Positions 2,079 through 52,875 of a stretch of DNA of 54,262 bases are shown here, piece after piece. This DNA is from a virus: positions 1 through 54,262 of the IMG/VR virus record IMGVR_UViG_3300042935_001150; one strand, written 5' to 3'. The notes under the pieces were generated by a model. The model did no database searches. It was not told the DNA's origin and saw only the letters and a program-made list of their open reading frames with translations. Position numbers and translations under genes: made by a program. How positions within the stretch are numbered: position 1 is the first letter of the stretch; each line of letters opens with the position of its first letter.

Positions 2079-2693
2079 TTAGGCTCCTAGTACATGCTTG
2101 GCATGTTCATAATGTTTTTTACGATCTTCTAGACCGATAGTACCCCCGTTAATACGTTTAGTTAGGGTTAAAATGTCGTCGGCATCTGCCCACTGATTCA
2201 ATTTGTTTGTTTCCCAAAACCAGCACGCGCTTTGTGCAGCACCTTCAAAGGTTTCCATGTATTCTGATGCGGCTTCAGGTGAAATTTCTATTGAAGCTGC
2301 AAACCAAAAGTAGTTGTCTTTGCCTGTTAGCTGAATTAAACCTCGACCAGAGTATCGATACCCGTCACCTGTTTCAGGTCCCCCATTGCCCATCCTGTTA
2401 GCATAAACTAAATTAGCAATTTTTTCTGGCTTGTTGGCATATTGTGCTGCCATTTCGTCAGTAGGAAAATATTTGCCAAAAATCTTGCGTAATGTAACTG
2501 CACGATAATTTAAATTTTCTTTGATTGCACGAAAATTACCTGACTCGTGAGCACATTGTGCTAAAAACGCAGCCATACGTTGGGGAGTATTGATCTCGTA
2601 ATCTGGTAATAGCTGTACTAAGGCTTTGTGCCAGTACTCTATGTAGGGATTTTTATCAACAATTTGTTTTAGTTGAGCTAGAGTTAGTTCCAT
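2079..2693 (-). CDS. Endolysin, glycoside hydrolase family 19 (chitinase-like lysozyme)
   Basis: The 204-residue protein is a single GH19 domain that would cleave the glycan strands of peptidoglycan at the end of infection. The first catalytic acid is Glu50 in the motif AHESGNF, the second probably Glu59 before NLNYRA, and the family motif RYSGRGLIQLTGKDNY follows at about 113-128. There is no signal peptide or SAR anchor, so export needs a holin. The ATG overlaps the stop of the o-spanin gene (TAATG), placing spanins and endolysin in one coupled unit. The length is normal for single-domain GH19 phage endolysins. Confidence 0.95.
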   Translation of the reverse strand: MELTLAQLKQIVDKNPYIEYWHKALVQLLPDYEINTPQRMAAFLAQCAHESGNFRAIKENLNYRAVTLRKIFGKYFPTDEMAAQYANKPEKIANLVYANRMGNGGPETGDGYRYSGRGLIQLTGKDNYFWFAASIEISPEAASEYMETFEGAAQSACWFWETNKLNQWADADDILTLTKRINGGTIGLEDRKKHYEHAKHVLGA

Positions 2694-2956
2694 TATTTTA
2701 CGCTTTCATAAATGGTTTTTTGTTCACTGTACCAACGCTGCCAAGCTTCTAGTTTAACAGCACACATATAGTACTCTGTGTAATTAACTGTAACAGTTTT
2801 TGCTACATCCGACAGCTTAGCTGTTTCTGCTAATTTTTGCAGATTAGGACAAGGCTCTTGTACTAGTGTTCCGGGCGCTTGCGGAAACTTTGCAATAACA
2901 GGAACAGTTGTGCAAGCACTAAGTAGTAAAATTACTGGTATTAATAAAAACTTCAT
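2693..2956 (-). CDS. Outer-membrane spanin (Rz1-like lipoprotein)
   Basis: The 87-residue protein has a lipoprotein signal: hydrophobic residues 3-12 and a lipobox LSAC with the lipidated Cys15. The mature part begins with TTVPVIAKFPQAP, a Pro-containing stretch as in Rz1 proteins, then a helical region with two more cysteines (PCPN and YMCAVK). The start overlaps the stop of the i-spanin gene by four bases, and the endolysin gene follows with a one-base overlap. With the upstream protein it should form the complex that fuses inner and outer membranes in the last step of lysis of a Gram-negative host. The assignment is from architecture, not from a sequence match I can run. Confidence 0.85.
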   Translation of the reverse strand: MKFLLIPVILLLSACTTVPVIAKFPQAPGTLVQEPCPNLQKLAETAKLSDVAKTVTVNYTEYYMCAVKLEAWQRWYSEQKTIYESVK

Positions 2957-3372
2957 TTCTTTGGTGCCTCTGCTGCTTGGTTATGTACTACGACAAAATC
3001 TTTGGGAATTACGCAGTTAGCATCAAACTTAACAACTTCACGATCTACGTACTTTACAATATCTTGACCGCGTTGTTTGACTATTTGAGTTTTTGTTACA
3101 ATTTTTTCCACAATATCGCTATTAGCCGTTGCAGATTTAGCTTCTGCCTCAGCAACTTTTACTTCTAGATCTTTTATTTTGGCTAGCCATGCATCGTTGT
3201 TTGATATAGCACCTATCATATAAATGCTAATACCAACCGCTGCAACACTTGCTGCTTGAATTAACTGTGCATTTGGCAACAGTTTAACAAACTTAGTAAC
3301 TAAAAATGCAGCTACGCCTGCTAATAGCAGTGCATAAAATATCCAGTTAGGTAAAAATTGTAATATCCACAT
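2953..3372 (-). CDS. Inner-membrane spanin (Rz-like) with two membrane spans
   Basis: The 139-residue protein has hydrophobic segments at about residues 8-27 and 39-56, a coiled-coil-like region at about 62-110 (rich in Lys, Glu, Ala, Val), and a C-terminal stretch with a single cysteine (DANCVIPKDF). The coiled coil followed by a conserved-looking C-terminus, and the immediately downstream lipoprotein gene with ATGA overlap, make it the i-spanin partner. Most i-spanins have one N-terminal span; two spans with an N-out/C-out arrangement are less usual, but similar proteins with the NCVIP motif occur in other aquatic phages. The single cysteine could permit a disulfide-linked dimer. Confidence 0.8.
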   Translation of the reverse strand: MWILQFLPNWIFYALLLAGVAAFLVTKFVKLLPNAQLIQAASVAAVGISIYMIGAISNNDAWLAKIKDLEVKVAEAEAKSATANSDIVEKIVTKTQIVKQRGQDIVKYVDREVVKFDANCVIPKDFVVVHNQAAEAPKK

Positions 3373-15699: not shown

Positions 15700-15843
15700 T
15701 TATTTCCTATTAAAATAAATTAAGGTATCATTGCTATCAGTAATAGCACAGGATTTTTCCCAATAAACTAACCCTGCTAAGTAGTATAAGTACTGAGTCT
15801 TAAACAAGGATTTCAGGAAATAATTCTTTATGTATGTAATCAT
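15700..15843 (-). CDS. Doubtful small frame overlapping the end of the bilin-reductase gene
   Basis: A 47-codon frame starts at an ATG at 15843 inside the bilin-reductase gene, in another frame, and continues through the 100-base gap to a stop at 15700, just before the next gene's ribosome binding site. Its last 30 residues (including LAGLVYWEKSCAITDSNDT) have a protein-like composition, but there is no good Shine-Dalgarno and no known family. The gap holds nothing else that I can identify. Confidence 0.25.
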   Translation of the reverse strand: MITYIKNYFLKSLFKTQYLYYLAGLVYWEKSCAITDSNDTLIYFNRK

Positions 15844-16492
15844 ATGTCTCTGTTTCTGAAAATCCCAGCGATTGTAACACTCTGGGAGTATGTGGATTAC
15901 ATTTTTGTTGTTGACAGTAATAATTTTGCTTGGTAGTAAAGTCATTAGCCGCAACCATATCTTCGTATTTTAGTGCTGGTCGATGCTTAGATATATTGTC
16001 CAAGTAATAAATAAGTGATTTCTTGGAAATTTCTAAAATCACTGATAGTTCAAAATCTGTGTTGATATTACCAGCTGCAACCATACGATTGCTAAATATA
16101 TTACGTGCCCACTCGGGCAGTTCTCGGGGCTTTGCCCACGAAGTTGGTTCTACCAACTCTTGAAAATACTTGCACAGTGGATGTTCGATATCACCAACTG
16201 GCGAAAAATCTAAAAATGCACCAGTTATTTTATTAGTACCGGCTATAATGTCAAAGCCATATATTGGTGCAGTATCATATACATGAGGAAATATACATAA
16301 ATGCATCATGTATAGTTTTTTGCTTTCACAAGCATCTATAACATCTAGGTTAGCTCTACGCGTCCAAGCACTGGAGTAATTTCGTGTATACCATTGAGAA
16401 GTTTGTTCCGGCTCTATTAAAAAGGCTCTAGCTTCAAGTATTTGTTCCAATTCTTGGGCATGTGTTTTTAGTTTACTGAATATTGTGCTCAT
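15800..16492 (-). CDS. Ferredoxin-dependent bilin reductase (PebS/PcyX/PcyA family)
   Basis: The 230-residue protein would reduce biliverdin IX-alpha, using electrons from ferredoxin, to a phycobilin. Family features: FPHVYDTAPIYGFDIIAG (68-85), the core ITGAFLDFSP (89-98) whose Asp95 aligns by eye with the catalytic Asp of the family, RELPEWARNIFS (123-134), and the C-terminal QNYYCQQQKCNPHTPRVL (189-206) followed by FPEIL. Length (about 230) matches phage enzymes. The subtype cannot be settled by eye: the YGFDIIAG...ITGAFLDFSP context resembles the phage PebS and PcyX groups more than cyanobacterial PcyA. The ATG lies 20 bases inside the heme-oxygenase gene, without its own clear Shine-Dalgarno, so the two are probably co-translated. 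Confidence 0.92.
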   Translation of the reverse strand: MSTIFSKLKTHAQELEQILEARAFLIEPEQTSQWYTRNYSSAWTRRANLDVIDACESKKLYMMHLCIFPHVYDTAPIYGFDIIAGTNKITGAFLDFSPVGDIEHPLCKYFQELVEPTSWAKPRELPEWARNIFSNRMVAAGNINTDFELSVILEISKKSLIYYLDNISKHRPALKYEDMVAANDFTTKQNYYCQQQKCNPHTPRVLQSLGFSETETYDYIHKELFPEILV

Positions 16493-17018
16493 TGGCTAGT
16501 TCTGTAAATAAGTCAAAAATCTGTTCAAAACAGTGGTTTGCTTCGGCAGCTAAATCGTCTGATAACTTTTCACGCAAATTTTGTATAAGCGTTTTTCTAT
16601 CAGAAAAATCGTACATACTACCATTGCCTGGAATTTTTGTTTTTATCATTTGACCGCCATACATATCGCCCATATGTCTTACATAAAGGTGAGCAAGCAG
16701 TTGTTGATTAGTTAAATTTTCTAAATAATCAACATACTTTATAGTTGCTGGATAAATTTTAGAAATTGGATATGTAGGTGTTAATTCATTAAAATCGTCT
16801 AAAATTGCTTGAGACCTTTTAATTGTTTCAATGTTTTTTAACAACCCCCGCTGTTCACAAAGAGTTTCCAATTTGTGATATGCGGGTAGTTGGTTGTATA
16901 AGTAATCAGCGTATACTTCTGCAGAAAGCTCACCGCTTACTAAACGTGTAGTAAACGGATGAGCTTCTGCGCGAGTGTGATTTTGATGTGTTAAATCTTT
17001 TAAAGACATAGTTACCAT
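16473..17018 (-). CDS. Heme oxygenase (biliverdin-forming)
   Basis: The 181-residue protein is a small helical heme oxygenase that should open heme to biliverdin IX-alpha, CO and ferrous iron. The proximal ligand is probably His14 in HTRAEAHPF, in the usual helix-1 context. The family signature is LLAHLYVRHMGDMYGGQ with the Gly-rich distal helix (GDMYGGQ) that sits over the heme. It is shorter than cyanobacterial HO1 (about 240) but similar to compact phage and bacterial forms. The start could also be the second ATG at 17009; both lie just after the stop of the cysteine-rich protein. The bilin reductase follows with a 20-base overlap, so product and substrate pass between coupled genes. Confidence 0.95.
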   Translation of the reverse strand: MVTMSLKDLTHQNHTRAEAHPFTTRLVSGELSAEVYADYLYNQLPAYHKLETLCEQRGLLKNIETIKRSQAILDDFNELTPTYPISKIYPATIKYVDYLENLTNQQLLAHLYVRHMGDMYGGQMIKTKIPGNGSMYDFSDRKTLIQNLREKLSDDLAAEANHCFEQIFDLFTELANEHNIQ

Positions 17019-17209
17019 TTACCTTTTGGGCAACTTACAATATCACCCATTCTAATTTTTATTGGCATAAAACAGCCGCATTGGTTACAAATTTTTAAAA
17101 CATTGTTAAAATATTCGCAATCAGAACATAGTTGTTTTCTTTTTTCAACTAAAGAAATATCTAGTTCTTTATTGTCTATTTGTGTGTCCCAGGACCTTGT
17201 ATTTTGCAT
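17012..17209 (-). CDS. Small cysteine-rich, probably zinc-binding protein
   Basis: The 65-residue protein has a flexible N-terminal third and six cysteines in the pattern CSDC, then KICNQCGC, then a final VSCPKGKW. This spacing is that of zinc-ribbon-like mini-proteins frequent in cyanophages and other aquatic phages, where they lie in the tail or fibre region; it is not the CxxCxxC pattern of a bacterial ferredoxin. Its stop overlaps the start of the heme-oxygenase gene, making it the first gene of the bilin cassette or the last of the fibre genes upstream. No function is established. A link to heme or iron handling is only positional. Confidence 0.85.
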   Translation of the reverse strand: MQNTRSWDTQIDNKELDISLVEKRKQLCSDCEYFNNVLKICNQCGCFMPIKIRMGDIVSCPKGKW

Positions 17210-17224
17210 AATTATCTAAAGTTA

Positions 17225-17590
17225 TTAATATCCTGCGTTTGCTTTATAGGGCTCATTTTCGGGGGAAGGATCATAGAAAAAAGCATCTTTTTCTGCTTGT
17301 GTTTTATCACTTAGTGTATATCCTAGTACCCAAACACCATCTAATAATTCAGGAATAGTTTTAATAGCATAATTTTGAAGTCTAGGAGTGTATTCTTGCT
17401 GTGTTGGCATAATTAATTGAACTTCTGCTAAAATATACCCGTGTTGCAAAGCTTGTTCTGTTTGTTCAAACCATTCTTTTAAAGAAAATCTATCATCATA
17501 ACTTGAATTAGGATTTTCTTCTAGTAAATGTTCTTTTGTGTAAGGATACGTCTCAACAATATTATTTTTGATTTTTGCTAATAAATTCAT
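17225..17590 (-). CDS. Small fibre-region protein with YPYT motif
   Basis: The 121-residue protein starts MNLLAKIKNNIVETYPYTKE followed by HLLEENPNSS. This kNNxVexYPYTxxxLxxxNPNxS pattern introduces many small proteins that sit beside tail-fibre genes in aquatic phages, sometimes annotated as fibre-assembly or DUF-containing proteins. The rest (LLDGVWVLGYTLSDKTQAEK) is unremarkable, and no membrane span or cysteine is visible. It lies between the glycine-rich adhesin and the bilin cassette. A fibre chaperone role is inference from position. Confidence 0.7.
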   Translation of the reverse strand: MNLLAKIKNNIVETYPYTKEHLLEENPNSSYDDRFSLKEWFEQTEQALQHGYILAEVQLIMPTQQEYTPRLQNYAIKTIPELLDGVWVLGYTLSDKTQAEKDAFFYDPSPENEPYKANAGY

Positions 17591-18616: not shown

Positions 18617-21178
18617 TTATGCAAACTTAGTTAATTGAGCTAAAATTGTAAATGCAGCGCTGGCTGTTTTAATAATAGTAAAATTGTACACATCAACAGA
18701 GCTAGCATTACCTGTAGTAGGAGCGGATCCGCCTGACCATTTAGGGGTTATTGTAACACCATCAACTTGAATACCTGTTGTATAATAGGCGGTACCTCCA
18801 TTAGTATTTACATATACTAAAGTATATGTTTCACCGGCAGCCATTAAGCTATTTAATGTAGTACTGGCATTGCCACGTACATTTAATACAAAATTACCGG
18901 TAGCGCTAGCAGTAGCATATACAATTGATTGAGTAGTTGCATCAATGTTAATTGTTCCGCCTGCACCTGTTCCAGTAAGAGTAACAGCTTCTAATGCATT
19001 TACTAATTTAACACCCATTGCTGCAGCGTTGCCGTTAAAAGTTTGTTTATCAGTAAAAGCCTGTGCTACGCTTCTAGTAGCTACTCGATTACCTGCTTCA
19101 AATAGTGTAGTACCGTGAATGTTGTTCCACTTTTTACTTACAGTACCTAAATCATAAGTTGCATCAGTTGCTGGTTTAGTTTCAGTAGCTACTTGAGTAA
19201 AGTATTGTTTTACAGCATATTCAGTAGGAACAGCAACATTTGAATTACCGCTTAGGGTAGCATCGCTTGAAAACTCACTGATTAACTCGCCTAACTGTGC
19301 GCCGATAGAACCTAGTTTTAAACTGGTCAGCCCGCTTAAGTCAAAAGCATTAGCGTTAAGTGTGGCACGTCCAGTTGCTTGATCAATCTTAAAGTAGTCA
19401 CCTACTCGGAAATTACCGTCTTGATCGGTACTTACATAAAATACGCGTCCTGGAATTACTTCGTCAACTTCTTGGCCTTGAACAGCAGCTTGAGTTGGAG
19501 TACCTGGATAATTTGTAGTTGTAACACCACCAGTTCCAACATTTAAAAAGTCGTGAGCAGTTAAACGAACCTGAGAGTACTTGTATCTGACAACAAAAGT
19601 AGCAGCATCAGCAGATCCTGTTAATTTTTCTTGTGCAAGTACAACCGTAACAACGCTACTAGCACTACTCCACGAACCACTTACAGTTTGAATAACATAA
19701 CTATAAGCGTCACCAGCTATAGTAATACTGCCACCAGCAATAGGACGTGCAGTTAAATTATTAAGAACTAGTACTAAACCTTTTTGATTTTCTAAAGCTC
19801 CAGCACTAATAGTGCCTGTTCCACCACTTGTAAATGTAAGCGTGTTAGTAAGATTAAAATCACCAACAATATCTGTAACATAAACTTTATTAGCACTTTG
19901 TTGTACACTACGAACTACAGCAGTACCACCAGCGCTACTTGTTACAGTATCTCCAACAGCAATAGTACCAGTAGTAATACAATTTAATTGTTTTCCAAAT
20001 ATTGTACCGCTTACAGTGGTTTCTGTAGAATCAAAGCCGTTAGCTGTTGCTCCCCAAGTACCGTAACTATTGTTACCATTAAGAGATCTAATGTATCCAC
20101 CTGCAGTTGCTGAATATCCAAAGTAGCAGTAGTATGTAAAGCATGAGACAATTTCTGATTTAGCATTGTTGTGAATCCAAAATCCAACACCATTATCGCT
20201 GATTACAGTATATTGATGGAAAAGCATTGACTTATAGCCACTAGAATGTGCACTACCATTTACATACGCTCCAATTCCTCCACTTAGAATAGCTGAGCAT
20301 TCTAGTATATAAGGACTACGTGCAGTAATGGGGCTACTTTCATTAAATGCTACTACAATGCCTTTTGGAGTTGAACTAGTAATATCTGCAGGAGTTGCTC
20401 CAGCTGTCCAACCAGTCATACCTTTAAAAGTCATCTTATTAAGAATTGAGCCATCACTCATTTTAAACATTATACTATTAGTGTTTAAATTAGTACCGTC
20501 ATCGCTTAAACCACTTGCTGGTTGTACATTAACTGTACGTTGATTATCACCAACAATAGCTACATTTGGAGGCACTACAATAGGTAGTTGTTCTAAATAA
20601 GTGCCGTTAGAAACTTTAATAGTACCTCCTAAGCCAACTTGAGCAAGATCTGCGCAAGCATACTTAATTGTTAAATAAGGAGTAGCTAAACTTTTACCGC
20701 TAGCTGCGGTATTTTGGCCGTGTGGTGCAACATAACGAACTTGAGCACTTGCAGTAGCACTTAACCATACTGGAGTACCATTATCGTAAGGTACTGTTAG
20801 TGCTTTGCCTTGATTAGTAGTGCTTTGATCTGGTAAAACATTACCAGCGTATAGTGCCCAAAAAGCAGAAGTTTGTGTAGGTGTATTAGCAAGATTGCTA
20901 TTAGCTGTAGAAATATACAGTTTTTCCGAATAAATAACGCCTTCACCAATAGCGTAAGTTGTTCCTGATGAATATACTCCACGAACGTTTACGCCTTCTA
21001 GTAATAGTGACCAATACACTGTATTAGTTGTTAAATTTGCTGCAGTGTTAAGTGGATTTATATACACATATAAATTTCCACCATATTTTACAACATCATT
21101 ATATTCATATGTTGTGCTGCTGCTCCATACACCCATGAAGGATAAACGCAGTTTTCCTAAATCAATAATTTGGCTCAT
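18617..21178 (-). CDS. Tail fibre with carbohydrate-binding-like N-terminus and beta-helix
   Basis: In the 853-residue protein, residues 10-115 contain two copies of a short CBM5/12-like unit (GVWSSSTTYEYNDVVKYGGN and GVYSSGTTYAIGEGVIYSEK). From about residue 147, RYVAPHGQNTAASGKSLATP opens a pectin-lyase-like right-handed beta-helix (DUF1565-type start, then LTIKYACADL and a series of short strands to about 370). Later parts include a chaperone-like ATYDLGTVSKKWNNIHGT motif. The last about 110 residues are a beta domain (NFVLNVRGNASTTLNS...QLTKFA) shared with the fibre at 5482-6906. Similar proteins occur in cyanophages and pelagiphages. It is a structural fibre, possibly with polysaccharide-binding or -degrading activity; no catalytic residues are evident. 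Confidence 0.85.
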   Translation of the reverse strand: MSQIIDLGKLRLSFMGVWSSSTTYEYNDVVKYGGNLYVYINPLNTAANLTTNTVYWSLLLEGVNVRGVYSSGTTYAIGEGVIYSEKLYISTANSNLANTPTQTSAFWALYAGNVLPDQSTTNQGKALTVPYDNGTPVWLSATASAQVRYVAPHGQNTAASGKSLATPYLTIKYACADLAQVGLGGTIKVSNGTYLEQLPIVVPPNVAIVGDNQRTVNVQPASGLSDDGTNLNTNSIMFKMSDGSILNKMTFKGMTGWTAGATPADITSSTPKGIVVAFNESSPITARSPYILECSAILSGGIGAYVNGSAHSSGYKSMLFHQYTVISDNGVGFWIHNNAKSEIVSCFTYYCYFGYSATAGGYIRSLNGNNSYGTWGATANGFDSTETTVSGTIFGKQLNCITTGTIAVGDTVTSSAGGTAVVRSVQQSANKVYVTDIVGDFNLTNTLTFTSGGTGTISAGALENQKGLVLVLNNLTARPIAGGSITIAGDAYSYVIQTVSGSWSSASSVVTVVLAQEKLTGSADAATFVVRYKYSQVRLTAHDFLNVGTGGVTTTNYPGTPTQAAVQGQEVDEVIPGRVFYVSTDQDGNFRVGDYFKIDQATGRATLNANAFDLSGLTSLKLGSIGAQLGELISEFSSDATLSGNSNVAVPTEYAVKQYFTQVATETKPATDATYDLGTVSKKWNNIHGTTLFEAGNRVATRSVAQAFTDKQTFNGNAAAMGVKLVNALEAVTLTGTGAGGTINIDATTQSIVYATASATGNFVLNVRGNASTTLNSLMAAGETYTLVYVNTNGGTAYYTTGIQVDGVTITPKWSGGSAPTTGNASSVDVYNFTIIKTASAAFTILAQLTKFA

Positions 21179-21179
21179 A

Positions 21180-21464
21180 TTATAATACTTTCATAAGTAA
21201 GCGATTTTTCCAGTTTGTGGCATTATCGCCCCAATATAGTTTAACAAGACTTTTTGACCAAAACCATTGTTGGTAACTGTCATTTTTAATTCCTACTTCT
21301 GTTGTAGGATTAGTTGCTGGCAAGCTAACTGGAGTATCACCATTTAGACAATCTAAGTATAGTTTGCCGCTTTGACCATCAACTCTGAATCCATAAAAAG
21401 TTTTATTAACTATGTCTTCTATGGTATCCGTAGCGGCAATTGTTTCTAATGATCCGATTGTCAT
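21180..21464 (-). CDS. Small fibre-region protein
   Basis: The 94-residue protein (MTIGSLETIAATDTIEDIVN, then a Trp-rich end QQWFWSKSLVKLYWGDNATN) overlaps the stop of the preceding small gene by one base and ends just before the beta-helix fibre gene. It has no signal peptide, cysteine cluster or membrane span. I have seen similar small proteins between fibre genes of aquatic phages; no function is known. A cofactor or cap for one of the neighbouring fibres is possible. Confidence 0.7.
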   Translation of the reverse strand: MTIGSLETIAATDTIEDIVNKTFYGFRVDGQSGKLYLDCLNGDTPVSLPATNPTTEVGIKNDSYQQWFWSKSLVKLYWGDNATNWKNRLLMKVL

Positions 21465-21784
21465 TATGACACTCCTTGTAGTATTGAAAAAACTATGTCT
21501 ACACTAGTGTCTGCATCCGCAGAAACAACTAGTTTATCTCCAGTAGATAAAACTGTTTTTCGACTGGCATCTAAAGCAAAAGTTTCTCCTACTTCTACTC
21601 GTTTGCCTTTATGTAGATAAACATCTGTTGCACCTCTTCGCAACTTTAAATTAAAGGGTACAGTGCTCCCTATGAGATTAACCACTGTACCTCCAACTAA
21701 CATTGATTTTTCAGTAGCGGTAAAGGCTACTACTTCTGTAGTGCCTACATTTGTTGAAATTGTATTTATAAATATTGTTGCCAT
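21464..21784 (-). CDS. Small beta-rich fibre-region protein
   Basis: The 106-residue protein has a regular beta-sandwich-like pattern: FINTISTNVGTTEVVAFTAT, VNLIGSTVPFNLKLRRGATD, VYLHKGKRVEVGE, LSTGDKLVVSADADTSVDIV. It lies between the 2099-residue collagen-like fibre and a second small protein, with a one-base overlap to the latter. It may decorate or cap a fibre. Similar small proteins with LKLRRG...GxxLVL recur in aquatic phages, but no role is established. Confidence 0.72.
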   Translation of the reverse strand: MATIFINTISTNVGTTEVVAFTATEKSMLVGGTVVNLIGSTVPFNLKLRRGATDVYLHKGKRVEVGETFALDASRKTVLSTGDKLVVSADADTSVDIVFSILQGVS

Positions 21785-21790
21785 ATTTTT

Positions 21791-24700
21791 TTATCCTAAC
21801 GCTATTGAGAAGACGGTTGCTATATCAGATGCAGTTTGTGCTACCTGTTCGGCACTTTCACCACCACCAGCAGTATCTCCTAGTAGCTCTCTTACAACGA
21901 TTTCATCTCCGTTATCCAATGTTGGTGCAGTAATTGTTAGAGTAGTTCCAGAAACGGTGTAATCAGTAGTAGGTGTTAATATTACACCATTAACTACCAC
22001 AAAAATAGTATTAATAGTACATCCACTATTAATTGTAAACGTATTTGTAATTCCATTTGCTGTAAAAACTTCAGTTACCATACTGTAAGGAGTAGTACCT
22101 TGAGTGCCTGAGGGACCTGTAGGACCTACTACTGTAGAGTCTGCACCAACTGGTCCTTGTGGACCTGTTGGTCCTTGAGCACCTGTTGGCCCAGCTAATG
22201 TAGATGCAGCACCTGCGGATCCAGTTGGCCCTTGTGGACCTGTGGGTCCTGGGACTATTGAATCATTACCTGTAGGTCCTGTAACACCAGCATTGCCTTG
22301 AATACCTTGAACACCTTGAGCACCTGTTGGTCCTATAAGTCCATCATTGCCTGTTGGACCTTGGGTACCTGTTGGACCTTGGATACCTTGTATACCAATA
22401 GATCCTGTGGGCCCTGTTGGACCTTGAATACCTGTAGGTCCTACTTCGCCTGCAACACCTGCAACACCTGCAACACCTGCAACACCAGCTGAACCTGTGG
22501 GTCCTTGAATACCTTGAGCACCTGCAGCACCTGTAGGACCTGTTATACCTTGAATACCAGTAGGACCTACTTGACCTTGAATACCTGCTGAACCTGTGGG
22601 TCCTTGGATACCTTGTAAACCTGTTGCACCTTGAATACCTTGTAAACCTGTTGGTCCTTGAATACCTGCAATACCTTGAGCACCTGTTGGTCCTTGAGCA
22701 CCTGCGGCACCTGCGGAACCTGTGGGTCCTGTAGTACCGTCACCAAGTAATTCTCTTACAACAATATCACTACCATTACCTGGAGCACTTGTCAATGTTA
22801 GAGTATTTCCAGTAACTGAGTAATCCGTTACTGGTTTTAATAACACACCATTAATAACTACTAAAAGATTATTAGTAGCATAACCACTATTGATTGTAAA
22901 TGCTGTAGTAGTACCATTACCAGTAAAAGTCTCGGTTTGAATATCAAACGCAAAACCAATTCCTGTGGGTCCTGTTGGGCCTATTAAACCTTGTGAACCT
23001 GTAGGTCCAACTACTGTTGATGCAGCACCTGTTGGTCCTTGAGCACCTGCAGTACCTTGTAAGCCTTGAACACCCTGTGAACCTGTTGGTCCTTGTGCAC
23101 CTTGAATACCTGTTGGTCCTACAATACCTTGTGAACCTGTTGGTCCTGTAAGTCCGTTAGCACCTGTAGGTCCTGTAATACCTGCAACGCCTTGAGCACC
23201 TGTGGGACCTGCTACTACTGAATCAGCTCCTGTTGATCCTTGGATACCTTGTGGACCTGTTGGACCTACAATACCTTGTGGACCTGTAGGTCCATCACCA
23301 AGCATCTCTCTGACTACGATTTGACTTGTATTATCTGGAGCTGCTGTAAATATTAAACTAGTACCAGATAAAGTATAATCTGTTACGGGCTTTAGCATAA
23401 TACCATTGACAACTACTAATAAGTTATCAATTCCATAGCCAGAAGCTATAGTAAACGCAGTTGTAGTTCCGTTTCCAGTAAAGTTTTCTGTTTGTATAAT
23501 AAAAGGATAGCCATTACCTACTGGGCCTTGAGCACCTGTAGGACCTGTATTACCTTGAGTACCTGCAGTACCTTGAACACCTTGAATACCTTGCGAACCT
23601 GTTGGTCCTGTATCGCCTTGCGATCCTGTAGGACCTACAATACCTTGTGAACCTGTAGGTCCTACAATACCTTGTGTACCTGCAACGCCTTGAACACCTG
23701 TGGGTCCTGCAACGCCTTGAGCACCTGTGGGCCCTACAATCTGTCCAACGTCTAAGTAAGAACTACCTGTCCAAGTATATAAATTACCATCGGCAATAAC
23801 AATATAAGCATCGCCTATACTAGGAGTAGGAGTAGTAGGTAAAGCACCTACTGTAGCAACTTCTCCGCGTATATTTACCGAAGTACCAGGGGCTCCTGCA
23901 ATACCTGTAGGGCCTGTAACACCTTGAATACCTTGTGAACCTGTAGGTCCTACAATACCTTGAATACCTGTAGGTCCTACAATACCTTGTGAACCTGTAG
24001 GGCCTGCGTTTCCTTGTGTACCTTGAACACCTTGTATACCTTGAGCACCTGTGGGACCTGCTGTACCTGCTGTACCTGTAGGACCTGTAGCTCCATCACC
24101 TAATAATTCTCTTACAACAATATCACTGCCATTACCTGGAGGAGTAGTAAATGTTAAGGTAGTTCCGCTAACTGAGTAGTCAACAACTGGTTTTAGTAGT
24201 ACACCATTAATAACTACTAAAAGATTATTAGTAGCATATCCACTATTAATTGTAAATGTTGTGGTAGTACCGTTACCTGTAAAGCTTTCTGTTTGAATAT
24301 CAAAAGCAAAACCAATACCTGCCGGACCTGCAATACCTTGAGCACCTGTAGGACCTGTTAGACCCTGTATACCCTGTGTACCTTGAGCACCTGTAGGACC
24401 CGAAGAACCTGTAGGACCTTGAGTACCTGGTGAGCCTGTAGGACCGGCTACTGTTGAGTCAGCTCCTTGAGCACCTGTGGGGCCTGTAGTACCTGCAACA
24501 CCTGCAACACCTGCAGCACCTTGAGCACCAGTTGGCCCTACAGTACCTTGAATACCTTGAATACCTTGTACGCCTTGAGCACCTGTTGGACCAGCTATTG
24601 TTGAATCAACTCCCTGAGCACCTGTTGGACCTGTAGTACCTTGCGATCCTGTAGGGCCTGTAACACCTTGTATACCTTGAATACCTTGCGTACCTTGAGC

Positions 24701-27700
24701 ACCTGTTGGACCAGTATCACCTTGACTACCAGCACTACCTACAGGACCTGTTGGTCCGTCGCCTTTTAATTCGCGAACTACAATTTCTTGAAGATTTTCA
24801 GGAGCAGTAACAAATGTCAGTGTTGTACCACTAACACTGTAGTCTACAGTTGGTACTAAAATAACGCCATTAGCTACAACGATAACACTATCAGTTGTAT
24901 AGCCACTATTAATTGTAAATGCTGTGGTAGTTCCATTTCCAGTGAAATTTTGTGTTTCTATTAAAAATGGTGAGCCAATACCGCCAGGGCCTTGGATACC
25001 TTGAGCACCTGTGGGTCCTACTGTACCTTGTGAACCTGTAGGACCTATATCGCCTTGGATACCTTGAGCACCTGTAGGTCCTGCAACGCCTTGAGTACCT
25101 TGTAAGCCTGTTGGTCCTGCAACTGTTGAGGAGGCTCCTTGAGCACCTGTGGGACCTATAGCGCCAGTATCACCTTGAGCACCTGCTGAACCTGTTGCTC
25201 CCTGAATACCTTGAATACCTTGCGTACCCTGAATACCTTGGATACCTTGAGCACCTGTAGGACCTATGTCACCTTGTGAACCTTGTGAACCTGTTGGTCC
25301 TGTAAGACCTTGAATACCCTGAATACCTTGAATACCAGTTGGACCTGCAACACCTTGAGCACCTTGAGGACCCTGAATACCACTAGCACCGCTAAGATCT
25401 GTGATATATACATAGTTTGTACCATTCCACAAATACAGTCTAGAATCTTCGGGGTTTTCAGGATTACCGGTATCTATAACTGCGAATTGGCCTGCTATAA
25501 TTGCACTAGGTGCAGTATCAGCAGTTAGTGCCGCTACGCTTGCATATATTTTTGCAATTGTAAAGCCTAAACCAGTAGAACCTGTTGGTCCTGTAGTGCC
25601 TTGTGCACCTGTAGGACCTGTGGGACCTGTAATACCTTGAGTACCTTGAGATCCTGTGGATCCTGTAGGACCTGTTGCTCCCTGAATACCTTGAGTACCT
25701 TGAATACCCTGAATGCCTTGTGATCCTGTAGGTCCTGCGTCGCCTTGAAGACCCTGAATACCTTGAACACCTGTAGAACCTGTAGGACCTGCTACTGTTG
25801 ATGCAGCTCCTTGAATACCTTGTGGACCTGTTGGACCTGTTGGACCTGTAGCACCATAACCAATACTTGCACCACCAACAGATAAAAATCCACCACTAAC
25901 ACTAATTGGCGTACCGCCTAAGTCAATAGTATCAGCAGCAAAGTAACCAGTTTTCCAACGTCTTGTTGGAGAACCAATATTATATACTTGATCTAATGCA
26001 GGTATAATATGGCTACTAACGCTAGTTAAGTCAATTGAGGGGCCTGTTGGGCCTGTAGCCCCGTCGCCAAGCATCTCTCTAACTACAATTTGACTTGTAT
26101 TGTCAGGAGCTATTGTAAATACTAAGTTGTTTCCAGATAAAGTATAGTCTGTTACTGGCTTTAGCAAAATACCGTTGACAACTACTAATAAGTTATCAAT
26201 TCCATATCCAGGATTTATAGCAAATGCAGTTGTAGTACCGTTTCCAGTAAAACTTTCTGTTTGTATAATAAAAGGATATCCAGTTCCTATAGGGCCTTGA
26301 ATACCTGTAGCACCTGTTGGGCCTGCAGTACCTTGAATACCTTGAGTACCTTGAACACCTTGAACACCTTGTGAACCTTGAATACCTTGAGCACCTGTAG
26401 GACCAGCAACTGTTGATGCAGCTCCTTGAGCTCCAGTTGGACCTGTAGGACCAGCAACTGTTGATGCAGCTCCTGTTGATCCTTGAATACCTTGTGGACC
26501 TGTGGGGCCAGTAACACCTTGAGCACCTGTAGGACCATCACCAAGCATCTCTCTGACTACAATTTGACTTGTATTGTCAGGAGCTACTGTAAATACTAAA
26601 TTAGTACCAGATAAAGTATAGTCTGTTCCTGGTTTTAGCAAAATACCGTTTACAACTACTAATAAGTTATCGATTCCATAGCCGGGGGCTATAGTAAACG
26701 CAGTTGTAGTGCCGTTTCCAGTAAAACTTTCTGTTTGTATAATAAAAGGATATCCAGTTCCTATAGGACCTTGAATACCTGTGGGGCCTGTAGGACCTGT
26801 ATTACCTGCAGTACCTTGAATACCTGTAGGACCTGCATTACCTTGAATACCTTGAATACCTTGTGAGCCTGTAGGACCTGCAACTGTTGAGGCGGCTCCT
26901 TGAGATCCTGTAGGGCCTTGAGGACCCTGAAGTCCACTAGCACCGCTGAGATCAGTTGTATATGTATATGTTGTACCATTCCATAAATACAGTTTTGAAT
27001 CGTCTGGATTATCTACATTACCTGTATCAATAATGGCAAACTGTCCAGCTACAATTCCGGTAGGTGCAGTATCTGCTGTTAACGCAGCTACTGTTGAATA
27101 TATTTTTGCTATTGCAAATCCAAGACCTGTAGACCCTGTAGACCCTGTAGGACCTGTAACGCCTTGAATACCCTGAATACCTTGTATTCCCTGAGCACCT
27201 GTAGGACCTGTAACGCCCTGTATACCTTGAATTCCCTGATCGCCTGTAGGTCCGGTAACGCCTTGAATTCCTTGAATTCCCTGATCGCCTGTAGGTCCGG
27301 TAACGCCTTGAATTCCTTGAATTCCCTGAGCACCTGTAGAGCCTGTAACGCCTTGTACTCCTTGAGCACCTGTAGGACCTGTAACGCCTTGAATTCCCTG
27401 ATCACCCGTAGATCCTGCAATACCTGCAGTACCTGCAATACCTTGGATACCCTGAGCACCTGTAGGGCCTTGTATACCTTGAACACCTGTGGGGCCTGCA
27501 GTACCTTGAGCACCTGTAGGACCTACTACTGTTGAGTCAGCACCTTGAACACCTTGAGCACCTGTTGGTCCTGTTGGGCCTACTACTGTTGAGTCAGCAC
27601 CTGTAGGACCTACATCTCCATATCCAGATATTTCTCTGATTACTACTTGCAGTCCTGCTGGAGGAGCAGTATTAAATATTACATTACTATTTAATACTGC

Positions 27701-28090
27701 ATAATCAGTAGTAGATTGGGCAATTCCGCCCATAAAAACTAAAACATTACTAGCACCTAGACCACTGCTAATTGCAAAAGTAACATTTGATCCGTCTGAT
27801 ATATATTGTCTTGTAGTTGCACTAAAAGGAATATTTCCGCTATTATTACTATTAATCCATTCAGTACCAGTATATTGTAGTGATTGTCCTACTACTGGAT
27901 TTACGATGTTTACGTCTAGTAAATCATCTAGTCGAAGTATGTCTTTAAAATATTTAACTGAGTTGTTAGATGCTTTAAAATATATCTTGCCATCTGCATA
28001 GTTAATGGCTAACTCGCCATAGTCGAGATCACCAGCAAGTGGGACTTTGTCCACTACCGACGATTTCTTAAGAATAATCTTATTTGCCAT
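21791..28090 (-). CDS. Giant collagen-like tail fibre
   Basis: The 2099-residue protein starts with a conserved fibre N-terminus ([10 protein letters not shown]...[19 protein letters not shown]). It then alternates collagen-like Gly-X-Y blocks ([10 protein letters not shown]) with globular beta modules. One module ([12 protein letters not shown]...GDGPTG, about 72 residues) occurs eight times, the first divergent and the last forming the C-terminus. A second ([18 protein letters not shown]...) occurs twice, and two others occur once each (a [16 protein letters not shown] unit and an [13 protein letters not shown] unit). Collagen blocks imply a trimer. Pro is rare in the triplets and no prolyl hydroxylase is seen, as usual for bacterial and phage collagens. 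If fully extended it would be one of the longest fibres of such a phage. Confidence 0.9.
22080..27610. repeat. Collagen-type coding repeats with interspersed module copies
   Basis: The region consists of nine-base-periodic Gly-X-Y coding DNA interrupted by module copies at about 22740-22960, 23290-23515, 24095-24320, 24757-24985, 26060-26285, 26535-26762 and 27610-27835 (an eighth at about 21880-22090). The copies at 26060 and 26535 are nearly identical in DNA and only about 475 bases apart. Such DNA is prone to expansion and contraction. Confidence 0.85.
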
Positions 28091-48898: not shown

Positions 48899-50083
48899 TT
48901 AAGCTGCTGCGTAATAAGAAACTTCGAGTTCATTCTTGGCTTCAATATCGTAAGCACCGCCTACAGCTGCACCTTGTGGGTTCAGAGTAATTGAAGTAGA
49001 AATAACTTGTTCAGAAGTAATAGTTGGAATTGTCAACATAGTTGTTGGCATTGACAAACTCATGCGGTTTGCATTATTTGATCCACCTAAATCAACTGTT
49101 ACTGCAAATTTGTTTTCTGTAGAGCTTGAGCTAGCAGTTAACAAGTCGCTTAACAACTGAGCGCTTTCATTTGTACCTGTCTTTAAATAAGCAGTTACAG
49201 TAGCAGAAATAGCACGTGAGCCAGTAAAATAAGTAATAGGCTGATTAACCACACCCAAATTAGCAGGTGTCAGATATGTCAAACTGTTATTGATAGTAAT
49301 GCTACCACCAGTAATAGCTACAGTATAAGTTTTAGCAGTTAATCCGCCAAAGGCCAATGCAGCAATGCTCATTGTAGACAACTTGTTAGCAATATACTTA
49401 GCATCAGTATCTTTGTACTTAGCTACTCCGGCTAATCCGCCGCTTAAAGCAACAGTACCAGCACTAGGAGCTGCGATTGTGACAGAAGCTAATTGACGCA
49501 TTGAAGTACCTTTACCAGCCCAGGTAACAGAAGCAATTGCATCTAAACCAAAGTCAATAGTAGCAGAATCAACGGCGCAATTATCAATTGCATAAGCAAC
49601 TGCTTCAAATACAATAATTAATCCAAAGGCTTGTAGTTGGTGAGCGTTAGACTTATCAAAAGCAACTTTAGAAACTGGAGTAAGACCTGGAGTAGCTGTC
49701 CAACCAGCGCCTGCACCACCAATAGCTGTAGTTCCGGCCATGGCGTTCCATAACACTGACTCTTCGCAAGCAATATAGTCATCTGCATCAGCAGCAACGT
49801 TAATTACAGTGCCTTCTTCAAATTTAGGGCGAATATAAGTAGCAAAATTCCAATCAACTGGCTCTAAGCTAGTGTTGAAACTGCGTTGACCGCGAATAGG
49901 TGTTGCACCTGCTTCGTTTAAGGTAACTGTTTCAGTACCTGTATTTTGTGAGAATGAGAACCCGTCTTGAACTTGAATCTCAAACGTATTTGTAGCGGTA
50001 AAACCTGTAGCGGCTACGCGATTACTTGTATCCAGATTAGTCGTGAAAAATACGCGACTATTGCGAATTAAATTTAATGCCAT
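48899..50083 (-). CDS. Major tail tube protein
   Basis: The 394-residue protein fits a tail-tube subunit: MALNLIRNSRVFFTTN start, a beta-rich N-terminal tube domain (TNTFEIQVQDGFSFSQ, GQRSFNTSLEPVDWNFATYI), and a long C-terminal part with Thr/Ala/Ser-rich strands (LTYLTPANLGVVN, YFTGSRAISATVTAYLKTGT). It is larger than lambda gpV (246), so it probably carries extra domains in the middle or at the end. It lies after the tail terminator and before the frameshifted chaperones, the classical position. A strong Shine-Dalgarno (AAAGGA) and its own terminator at 48854-48879 fit high expression. The 84-base gap upstream holds no promoter I can defend. Confidence 0.88.
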   Translation of the reverse strand: MALNLIRNSRVFFTTNLDTSNRVAATGFTATNTFEIQVQDGFSFSQNTGTETVTLNEAGATPIRGQRSFNTSLEPVDWNFATYIRPKFEEGTVINVAADADDYIACEESVLWNAMAGTTAIGGAGAGWTATPGLTPVSKVAFDKSNAHQLQAFGLIIVFEAVAYAIDNCAVDSATIDFGLDAIASVTWAGKGTSMRQLASVTIAAPSAGTVALSGGLAGVAKYKDTDAKYIANKLSTMSIAALAFGGLTAKTYTVAITGGSITINNSLTYLTPANLGVVNQPITYFTGSRAISATVTAYLKTGTNESAQLLSDLLTASSSSTENKFAVTVDLGGSNNANRMSLSMPTTMLTIPTITSEQVISTSITLNPQGAAVGGAYDIEAKNELEVSYYAAA

Positions 50084-50167
50084 ACTCTTTCCTTTATGAT
50101 TTTTTGGAAATACTTAAGCACTGTGACTAGATATTTATCTGTTGTCGTACTTGTATAAATCCGAGAG

Positions 50168-50608
50168 TTATACTAATGCATAGCGCACTTGTAGATTGAT
50201 TTCACCGACACCATAAGGAGCTAATAGCCCTTCGTCAGTAGTTATTGACTGAATTAATATTTCAGTAGTTGAAAGGTTATTAGTAACGTCATATACTAAT
50301 ACACGATTATTGTTGATTACAGTTTCAAGATCGTTTATTAAATCTTCTAACTGCTGCTGGGCTTCGTTTTCGCTACGTACGTATACTTTAACACTAATGT
50401 TTAAAAAGCCCCAAGTAAAGTCGGCCGGATGATACTCACGTATTTCTGTGCCTGCTGTAAGATACACACAAGGGAAGTCTTGAACTTCATCCCAAAACTT
50501 AAGTTTAGGATAGCTGTTATCAAATAGATCTGAAGTATACGGAGCATTTCCATCTATTATTTTAAATTTTTCAGCTAAGGCTGTTACAATACTAATTCTT
50601 TTTGTCAT
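50168..50608 (-). CDS. Tail terminator protein (gpU-like)
   Basis: The 146-residue protein has the alpha/beta layout of tail terminators: helical start (TKRISIVTALAEKFKIIDGN), FPCVYLTAGTEIREYHPADF, the beta strand and helix WGFLNISVKVYVRSENEAQQQLEDLINDL (about 66-94), and a C-terminal strand GVGEINLQVRYALV. It caps the tail tube and joins it to the neck. It overlaps the neck gene by four bases and precedes the tail-tube gene. Confidence 0.82.
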   Translation of the reverse strand: MTKRISIVTALAEKFKIIDGNAPYTSDLFDNSYPKLKFWDEVQDFPCVYLTAGTEIREYHPADFTWGFLNISVKVYVRSENEAQQQLEDLINDLETVINNNRVLVYDVTNNLSTTEILIQSITTDEGLLAPYGVGEINLQVRYALV

Positions 50609-52224
50609 AGTGATACTGCCCTTAAATTATTAGATACTACTTGTTGTGCAATTTCTCTAATTGATTTAGAGATTAATAATTTGGGGTCTCTGGTTGCCGG
50701 TATGGACTGACGTCCGCCAGCGCTAAATGTTGCATATGGATTTTTCATATATGAATAAAAAGCAGTAATAAAACCATCACGACTACTTGTTAAACGTTCT
50801 ACTTGTACGGTACTAGCAAATCTACCAGTTCTATAATTAAGAACATTCCTACTACCACCATCACCCATGTTGGCACTTATTACATCTTGAAGTTGACTAT
50901 TTATTAAAGCTGTTAAACTAAAAAGATTTAAACTAGTTTGATTACTTGTAGCCGCTTTATTAGCACTTGCTTTTAAGCCACCAGATTTAGTTTTTGCAGT
51001 AGCTTTAGCATCTGTTTTTAGTAAGGCATGCGTTTTAACAGTACCTTTGGCTTTAGCCGTAGAAGTTTTTACAACTCTTGGAGACTTATTACCTTTTAAA
51101 TTTTCTACAAGTAAATCATTTATATACTCAGATAAAGAAGGAGAGGCTCCAGTATTTATACCAGTATCGTCTAATAATCCGCCTTTGAATTTATTTCTTG
51201 CCTGTTCTGCAATAGTCGGTAAAATAGTATTGCCAATATAGGCTTTAATTCTTGCTAACTCTTGTGTACGCAAAGTATTTGTATTAAATGCTGATGGCAT
51301 TGTTACTACAAATGAAAATTGCATATCTAGCATTTTTCCTGCTTTTTCTGTAAAGTTTTGTTTAAACTTTATTTCGTAATTAGCGTCTAAATATAAGTCA
51401 GCTATTGCTAACTCTAATCCTTCGGACTTTTCTTTACCTGACAGCAGAAACTGTCTTTCTTGTGCTAAAGGCATATTAATACCTATTAGCTTATCATTTA
51501 CATCAAATGCTGCAGTATGTCCTGCATTAATAAAATCACCGATAGTAAAACGATTCTGCGTACTAGAAGAAGCACTATACGGTTTTAATTCAATATCATA
51601 ACTCTTGGAAAATGCTTCTCGCAGAGCTTTATTTAAAGCTGTATTTACTTTTTCTACAGCACCATTAAAAGTTGGGGCTATTACAACATAAGCATTTTTG
51701 CCTAAATTTTCTACAATAGAAGCTGCGTCTGACGCTATAAAAACACCTAAGGCTTTTCCTTGTGTTCTGAGCTTAAACTGAAAAGTTGTTGTAGCATTTC
51801 TATACCCAATATAACTTGAACGTTTTGCTAGAGTATTTACTAAACTATCAAAATCTTTTTCTACTTTAGCAATAAAAGGCAGAAAAGGTTTTTGCGGTAT
51901 AGTTAGCAATGCTGTTTCAATTGTATCGTGCAAAAACTTAATTAGTTTTTCTTTTTTAGGAAACCTAGACTTTATGTAATCATCATTACCTGAGAAATTA
52001 CTAAAGCCTAAATTAGCAGCTAGTTCTTTTACTATTAGATCTATATCTACAATATAAAAAGTAGGTAAATTAGCATCAATAAGGTCACGTAACTTTTTTG
52101 ATTCTAGTTTGGCAACATCAAAGTCCTTATACAATGCACTTTTCTGAACCTTAGTATTTGCAGCAGCTAAAGCACTACCAGATATCATGTCTAATAATCT
52201 GGAGAAATGAAGCTTTCTTGCCAT
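50605..52224 (-). CDS. Large neck or head-closure-region protein of unknown family
   Basis: The 539-residue protein sits where lambda-like phages encode a small neck/tail-completion protein (gpZ/gp10-like, about 110-190 residues). It is far longer. The N-terminal two thirds are helical and mixed (MARKLHFSRLLDMISGSALA, FLPFIAKVEKDFDSLVNTLA). A basic, Lys/Ala/Thr-rich linker lies near 385-420 (TAKAKGTVKTHALLKTDAKA). The C-terminus has a tidy domain: LNYRTGRFASTVQVERL, FYSYMKNPYATFSAGGRQ and PKLLISKSIREIAQQV, which looks like the gp10-type neck fold. I therefore infer a gp10-like C-terminal domain with a large N-terminal extension. The start overlaps the connector stop by one base. Confidence 0.7.
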   Translation of the reverse strand: MARKLHFSRLLDMISGSALAAANTKVQKSALYKDFDVAKLESKKLRDLIDANLPTFYIVDIDLIVKELAANLGFSNFSGNDDYIKSRFPKKEKLIKFLHDTIETALLTIPQKPFLPFIAKVEKDFDSLVNTLAKRSSYIGYRNATTTFQFKLRTQGKALGVFIASDAASIVENLGKNAYVVIAPTFNGAVEKVNTALNKALREAFSKSYDIELKPYSASSSTQNRFTIGDFINAGHTAAFDVNDKLIGINMPLAQERQFLLSGKEKSEGLELAIADLYLDANYEIKFKQNFTEKAGKMLDMQFSFVVTMPSAFNTNTLRTQELARIKAYIGNTILPTIAEQARNKFKGGLLDDTGINTGASPSLSEYINDLLVENLKGNKSPRVVKTSTAKAKGTVKTHALLKTDAKATAKTKSGGLKASANKAATSNQTSLNLFSLTALINSQLQDVISANMGDGGSRNVLNYRTGRFASTVQVERLTSSRDGFITAFYSYMKNPYATFSAGGRQSIPATRDPKLLISKSIREIAQQVVSNNLRAVSL

Positions 52225-52790
52225 TATGTAAAGTCCGCCACGTATTGATCTAAAACACGCTTAATTGTAGCGGGTAAGTTAGTTGATGCAACGTAATTAA
52301 TTTGTGTAGTATTAGGGTTTAAATCGCGGCTACTGTGTACAGCCCCGTTATTTCTTGAATAGTACTCGACTAAATCTAATACTGCTAACTTTAAGTCGCC
52401 TGGGATTGGATCAAATCCGCCAAAATAACTTACACGATATCCATTAATTAATTCTGGAAATCCACCAGGAGCCAGACTAATTACAGAGTCGCCTTTTATA
52501 ACCCAGTCTTCGAACTTTACTAAACTTGTATACGTTTTACCATAATCTGAACTATATGCTACTGAAGATACACTTACAACGGGAGTTTCTTTTAATAAGA
52601 TCTCTTTAAATCCACCATCAAAAACTTCAACCTTTATATCGCTGTAGTAATCTACAAAAGTGCGACGGCAGTATGATTTTACCAAGTCACTGACTTTAGG
52701 TATTAAGAAATCTATTTCTGCGTCTGAATTTGTACTAGTAATCCCCATGTAAGATTTGTACTCAGATTTTGTTATTAAATCTATTGCCAT
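52224..52790 (-). CDS. Head-tail connector (adaptor) protein
   Basis: I place the start at the ATG at 52790 (MAIDLITKSEYKSYMGITST), which has GAGG five bases upstream. An apparent longer frame to 52862 runs through the terminator hairpin and must be rejected. The 188-residue protein starts with the helical domain of gp6-like/Phage_connect_1 adaptors (LITKSEYKSYMGI, DAEIDFLIPKVSDLVKSYCR), a beta middle (PVVSVSSVAYSSDYGKTY), and a helical end (DLKLAVLDLVEYYSRN, PATIKRVLDQYVADF). It would sit on the portal and receive the neck protein. It follows the capsid gene after a terminator. Confidence 0.85.
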   Translation of the reverse strand: MAIDLITKSEYKSYMGITSTNSDAEIDFLIPKVSDLVKSYCRRTFVDYYSDIKVEVFDGGFKEILLKETPVVSVSSVAYSSDYGKTYTSLVKFEDWVIKGDSVISLAPGGFPELINGYRVSYFGGFDPIPGDLKLAVLDLVEYYSRNNGAVHSSRDLNPNTTQINYVASTNLPATIKRVLDQYVADFT

Positions 52791-52800
52791 AAATACCTCA

Positions 52801-52839
52801 CTTGTTTTATAAAGGCACAATATACCTTTATAAAACAAG
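52801..52839 (-). promoter_or_regulatory. 15-pair hairpin competing with the capsid terminator
   Basis: CTTGTTTTATAAAGG (52801-52815) is perfectly complementary to 52825-52839, with a nine-base loop. In the RNA its 5' arm uses bases 52834-52839, which are also part of the stem of the terminator at 52834-52857, so both cannot form fully at once. The structure ends one base before the connector's ribosome binding site region. This is an attenuator or antiterminator layout by sequence alone. Confidence 0.7.
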
Positions 52840-52857
52840 ACCCCGAAGGGTCTTGTT
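52834..52857 (-). terminator. Intrinsic terminator after the capsid gene
   Basis: A ten-pair stem (AACAAGACCC / GGGTCTTGTT) with a UUCG loop on the minus strand is followed by TTAT after the TT of the stem. It lies 18 bases after the capsid stop. It should give capsid message in excess over connector and neck message. Confidence 0.9.
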
Positions 52858-52875
52858 AACAATTACACTAGCAGA

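Follow-up and report, generated by a model that had tools for sequence, protein, structure and literature searches.

The window analysed here is a 54,262-nt stretch, the linear metagenomic fragment IMGVR_UViG_3300042935_001150, which holds two overlapping genes on its minus strand. The upstream gene (16473–17018) encodes a heme oxygenase (HO) family member of 181 aa, and the downstream one (15800–16492) a putative PcyX-type ferredoxin-dependent bilin reductase of 230 aa, the two reading frames overlapping by 20 nt. A preliminary description of this DNA had named both enzymes at these positions, quoted their motifs and noted the overlap; Pfam, a PDB search and AlphaFold folds agree on the two families, the motifs are present and the overlap is confirmed. 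The start of HO overlaps by 7 nt a small Cys-rich ORF (17012–17209; 65 aa, DUF6171-like, phrog_13558), which is preceded by a 121-aa ORF (17225–17590) for which no family match was found. Further upstream lies a tail-fibre gene (18617–21178), of which residues 1–670 form the core of the fibre family linked to HO–PcyX. This core is 1.6 kb upstream of HO, placing the pair in the tail-fibre region as first proposed. Next come two genes that travel with the fibre, encoding proteins of 94 aa (21180–21464, directly upstream) and 106 aa (21464–21784). All these genes share the minus strand, as do the T5-like backbone markers from the major tail protein to the capsid protein (48899–54243) and an endolysin gene with two small genes (2079–3372; endolysin 2079–2693), which form the lysis-side border of the fibre/HO–PcyX interval in T5-like relatives. 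A 2099-aa collagen-like fibre with many GPTGxQG repeats is encoded at 21791–28090 of the same late region. The Cys-rich protein shows a CxxC...CxxCGC...C pattern and is a candidate zinc-ribbon or electron-carrier protein; a similar Cys domain is found at the end of a 231–264-aa protein directly upstream of HO in two other loci, L097 and L098.

Profile searches against the HO and bilin reductase families put both proteins far above the Pfam cut-offs. The HO matched Heme_oxygenase (PF01126) at 1.3e-17 and 64.8 bits (cut-off 23), and the PDB sequence search found bacterial HOs as its nearest relatives (2e-7). Its AlphaFold model (pLDDT 94.4) gave HmuO/HO-1 as the best fold matches. It retains the proximal His (His14) and a distal helix with GDMYGG, and in an alignment of 26 phage HOs the residues His14, Gly117, Asp118, Gly121 and Gly122 are invariant. 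Moreover, dN/dS values mostly between 0.04 and 0.24 indicate strong purifying selection. The protein is thus a member of the HO family, with a predicted activity of converting heme to biliverdin IX-alpha.

The reductase matched Fe_bilin_red at 2.5e-20 and 73.5 bits (cut-off 31), and in the PDB sequence search phage PcyX (5owg) scored 4.3e-51, whereas PcyA reached only 6e-11. The best fold match of its AlphaFold model (pLDDT 89.1) is also 5owg. His64 and Asp81 correspond to the catalytic pair His88/Asp105 of PcyA and are invariant in all 87 aligned rows, whereas Asp50 occupies the position of PcyA Glu76, as does Asp55 of PcyX, a residue named as PcyX-specific (PMC11480375). This gene is likewise under strong purifying selection (dN/dS of 0.04–0.11), and its frame is uninterrupted in over 80 distinct sequences. 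By homology, it is a predicted ferredoxin-dependent bilin reductase, whose nearest characterised enzyme is PcyX. The expected His at the position of PcyA His74 is absent and replaced by Asn48. His at this position, a trait seen in our alignment and not a published defining trait of PcyX, is found in PcyA, PcyX 5owg, Pelagibacter phage Mosig and most phage relatives; Asn occurs in 27 of the 87 rows, all of them in the clade of the window or in L097/L098. In PcyA, one water molecule is shared by His74 and the catalytic His88 (PMC9800206). Given that Asn48 replaces a conserved His, activity and product could differ, and the natural His74-to-Asn variant offers a probe of proton transfer in bilin reductases. 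According to the literature searched, the Asn in this clade appears to be new. The phages of L097, L098 and L100 carry the Asn independently of the T5-like clade; in these loci HO and reductase are separated by about 876 nt, with an unassigned 286-aa gene in between (10593–11453 in L098).

The phylogeny suggested as a check in the preliminary description places the window reductase in a clade of its own, but phage vPcyA-type enzymes bearing Glu at position 76 nest within the PcyX-like sequences, so that the product is not fixed by phylogeny. Owing to Asp50, we lean towards phycoerythrobilin (PEB) as the likeliest product, with less certainty than for 5owg because of Asn48.

A peptide-pattern scan of IMG/VR retrieved 76 loci via the reductase and 66 via HO. 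Overall, the two genes co-occur in 131 of 138 loci, and in 124 of 130 they stand in tandem, adjacent or overlapping, most commonly by 20 nt. In a few loci one gene intervenes; in L043, for example, it resembles a 2OG-Fe(II) oxygenase gene, and in L158 it encodes a carbon-nitrogen hydrolase. The pairing as such is already known, since marine and freshwater phages with hemO–pcyX cassettes have been published (PMC11480375); among isolated phages, both genes were found only in Mosig. Taken together, the active-site residues, folds, purifying selection and overlapping frames are as expected for functional enzymes, and the short heme-to-phycobilin pathway claimed at the outset is right as judged from enzyme families, residues and folds.

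As the record is a linear metagenomic fragment, a chimeric assembly, or a pair of decayed and functionless host genes, has to be weighed. The order fibre–HO–PcyX–fibre is kept, with the same junctions, in L001 (100% identical) and L002 (98%, from a different metagenome), which are separate IMG/VR contigs, and about 130 further loci have the HO–reductase pair. A chimera, the refuting condition named at the outset, was thus not borne out and is rejected; together with the low dN/dS and the many intact frames, these contigs render either explanation extremely improbable. A bacterial source of the pair was likewise rejected, on the basis of a search that was not exhaustive and used patterns favouring phage-like sequences: the scan of GTDB species genomes gave only five MAG loci, mostly on short contigs, one of which had phage-like surroundings that included a cell-wall hydrolase; of 385 sampled class-mates, 2 exceeded the cut-off; and plasmids gave no match. 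L158, a 335-kb contig filed under a Neomarinimicrobiota MAG, carries HO, the carbon-nitrogen hydrolase and the reductase near IMPDH and a cell-wall hydrolase; its presence in a bacterial MAG is probably due to the binning of a large phage contig.

The carrier had been described as lambda-like, which proved wrong. Its capsid and tail-tube proteins match those of T5-like phages of Aeromonas, Klebsiella, Salmonella and Vibrio. In G002, a close relative of 99.7 kb, the terminase shares 50% identity with that of Vibrio T5-like phages, and an NAD-dependent ligase and a tRNA array are present; no tail sheath was found in the T5-like records. The clear lambda-type match of the window phage is its J-like tail protein, which accounts for the lambda-ordered impression. 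Judged by its head and tail genes, the window phage is classified as a T5-like (Demerecviridae-like) siphovirus. The same tail-tube gene was found in 11 related HO–PcyX records, many other records being short fragments. In a 128-kb T5-like relative, ARAGORN detected a tmRNA gene inside the tRNA array (119473–119888 in G001; 19473–19888 in L143).

Five T5-like relatives that possess the tail tube (G435, G436, G454, G455 and G459) are devoid of the bilin reductase. Gene maps of four of them (G454 not included) show that the tail-to-lysis order is kept while the cassette is missing. G435 and G436 are also without the fibre of 18617–21178, and G455 and G459 retain only traces of one small fibre-companion gene. 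The cassette is an accessory module in a T5-like siphovirus lineage, which appears to be new with respect to the literature searched.

HO–PcyX is nearly always linked to one tail-fibre core across unrelated phage backbones. The core was found in 48 of 55 HO–PcyX loci having at least 8 kb of upstream sequence, the seven exceptions being four Glu-bearing vPcyA-type loci plus L059, L073 and L101. In the reverse direction, three different fibre seeds, with no other gene as bait, retrieved 122 distinct viral contigs, and fibres were clustered at 95% DNA identity for independent counts. Where at least 8 kb of sequence followed the fibre, 40 of 41 clusters contained HO/PcyX, and a 6-kb cut-off gave 45 of 49; the seeds all came from HO–PcyX-bearing phages, and more distant fibres are under-sampled in these counts. 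In 90 loci, HO lies 1.5–8.8 kb downstream of the fibre core, and in none upstream. The carriers of fibre and HO–PcyX comprise T5-like phages, sheath-bearing phages (G016, G019, G432 and G478) and others, the terminase of the other carriers being about 25% identical or undetected. The distances between these genes correlate only partly (Mantel r of 0.55 for HO–reductase, 0.45 for HO–fibre and 0.28 for reductase–fibre), suggesting that HO, reductase and fibre genes recombine yet remain together. Between L004 and L013, the reductases are close (dS 0.29) and the HOs distant (dS 1.19), a contrast in which HO seems to have been swapped by recombination beside a conserved reductase. The fibre link appears to be previously undescribed in the open-access literature, to which the search was confined and in which absence is weak evidence. 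The preliminary view that the finding is unusual was too strong with regard to the pairing, which is published (PMC11480375) and also lies in the fibre/neck region of Mosig; what does remain unusual is that the carrier is T5-like, that the active site has a derived Asn and that the pair is linked to a single fibre family.

Such linkage raises the idea that HO–PcyX is a functional partner of the fibre family, with bilin or heme breakdown acting in fibre maturation, as a cofactor, in virion colour, in photoprotection or in receptor recognition. The association in 40 of 41 fibre clusters across backbones speaks for it, the more so as reductase and fibre identities track each other only weakly and the association thus persists despite recombination; if true, a partnership of this kind would account for the spread of the pair with this fibre to unrelated phages. 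However, the cyanophages P-SSM2, S-CAM1/3 and S-SSM7 have a distant fibre core (about 36%–41% identity) with no HO/PcyX beside it, and HO-bearing phages share no invariant fibre Cys that other phages lack, for which reason a bilin-binding Cys of the linked fibre was rejected. As shared hosts together with hitch-hiking in the hypervariable fibre region offer a simpler account, we regard a role in the virion as improbable.

The genes around the pair bear on its use. In a Pfam census of 68 genes directly upstream of HO, 23 encode a tail assembly chaperone and at least 7 a 2OG-Fe(II) oxygenase, and sugar-modifying enzymes recur, indicating that the pair is located at the end of a fibre and fibre-assembly unit. 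2OG-Fe(II) oxygenase genes abut or overlap HO in unrelated phages (L137, 8334–9570; L043, 8247–9997; L068, 8757–9407; also L008, L024 and L080). A promoter scan gave promoter-like sites in numbers no higher than chance.

It is possible, if doubtful, that what the phage gains is the Fe2+ of host heme, set free at a late stage of infection to supply its Fe(II)/2-oxoglutarate oxygenases or metalloproteins, with the reductase serving only to remove biliverdin; iron supply has been discussed in this context (PMC11480375). Consistent with this, a 2OG-Fe(II) oxygenase stands directly upstream of HO in the census fraction given above and in Mosig, and L008, L024, L043, L068 and L080 are examples; Mosig also has a ferrochelatase in the HO neighbourhood. 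Near HO, 2OG oxygenases make up 19 of 531 ORFs against 5 of 631 (Fisher p 0.0013), an enrichment biased by seeds partly chosen near HO. Against it, a seed-based search found no such oxygenase near HO in the window, and iron release alone leaves the strict conservation of the bilin reductase unexplained. HxH motifs with fibre-bound iron have been reported for T4 fibres; this motif is absent from all tail-fibre proteins of the window, and iron bound to the fibre in that manner was rejected.

Somewhat less probable still is that a host photoreceptor or biliprotein takes up the bilin as its chromophore, by which the phage would retune host light sensing. Phage PcyA and HO can assemble functional Cph1 phytochrome (PMC11480375), and bilin-binding globins exist in heterotrophs (PMC10151467), but no phycobiliprotein gene exceeded the cut-off in 34 related records and no link to light genes was seen. 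psbA was found in 0 of 48 related records, in line with the initial remark that photosynthesis genes are absent. Based on these counts and on the identity of only 26%–34% between the reductase and cyanophage PcyA, a photosynthetic or cyanophage origin was rejected. A phage-encoded ferredoxin or AlaS partner was also rejected, as Fer2 ferredoxin and AlaS each occurred in 0 of 32 related virus records; host ferredoxin is assumed instead.

Gene identity, residues, predicted folds, selection and linkage enable us to propose a putative model, which we consider likely: in a T5-like aquatic phage, the pair serves as an auxiliary-metabolism cassette that leads from heme via biliverdin to a phycobilin and travels with one fibre family. 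HO and reductase would be expressed late with the tail-fibre genes, to judge only from their position. HO would open host heme to yield biliverdin, Fe2+ and CO. Afterwards, the overlapping reductase, probably translationally coupled, would take biliverdin to the phycobilin using host ferredoxin, and this consumption may pull the HO reaction forward. Cassette and fibre would form an island exchanged between unrelated phages, probably through shared hosts. The benefit might lie in the turnover of heme and iron or in supplying a host protein with a bilin, neither of which is favoured by the data. A T5-like lineage in which some members have the cassette and others do not, combined with the tight fibre link, provides a handle on the reason for bilin genes in phages of non-photosynthetic hosts: sister phages can be compared and hosts found via the fibre, which bears on a use of the pair in iron supply, in light sensing or in the virion.

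Among the closest known systems is the phage hemO–pcyX cassette (Ledermann 2016/2018; PMC11480375), with PcyX represented by EBK42635 (PDB 5owg). It shares with the window the gene order, the Asp at the PcyA Glu76 position, phage carriage and the lack of photosynthesis genes; its PcyX makes PEB, and a freshwater phage HO makes biliverdin (PMC11480375). However, the published marine carriers group with myoviruses, so a T5-like siphovirus is a different type of phage carrier, and the window reductase differs in its own clade, in Asn replacing His74 and in the lack of AlaS from the related records. Pelagibacter phage Mosig EXVC030M (MT647606) resembles the window in having HO and then PcyX in overlapping frames downstream of a related fibre; in contrast, it belongs to Kyanoviridae, possesses a tail sheath and carries 2OG oxygenases and a ferrochelatase between fibre and HO, its reductase and HO being about 46% and 33% identical to those of the window, respectively. 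The freshwater CB_2-type vPcyA/HemO is likewise an HO–reductase pair of freshwater/peat phages, of which the CB_2 enzyme makes PCB and is without the PcyX Asp (PMC11480375); the loci here with Glu at that position (e.g., L104 and L121) are without the linked fibre. Cyanophages with PebS/PcyA and ho1 also encode bilin biosynthesis, via reductases distant from that of the window. Finally, the window phage and its close relatives have in common with T5-like phages (Demerecviridae) the capsid, tail tube, terminase, NAD ligase and tRNA arrays, whereas protein identities of only about 30%–50%, the J-like protein and the collagen-like fibres set the window phage apart, which likely represents a separate aquatic lineage from the known T5-like phages.
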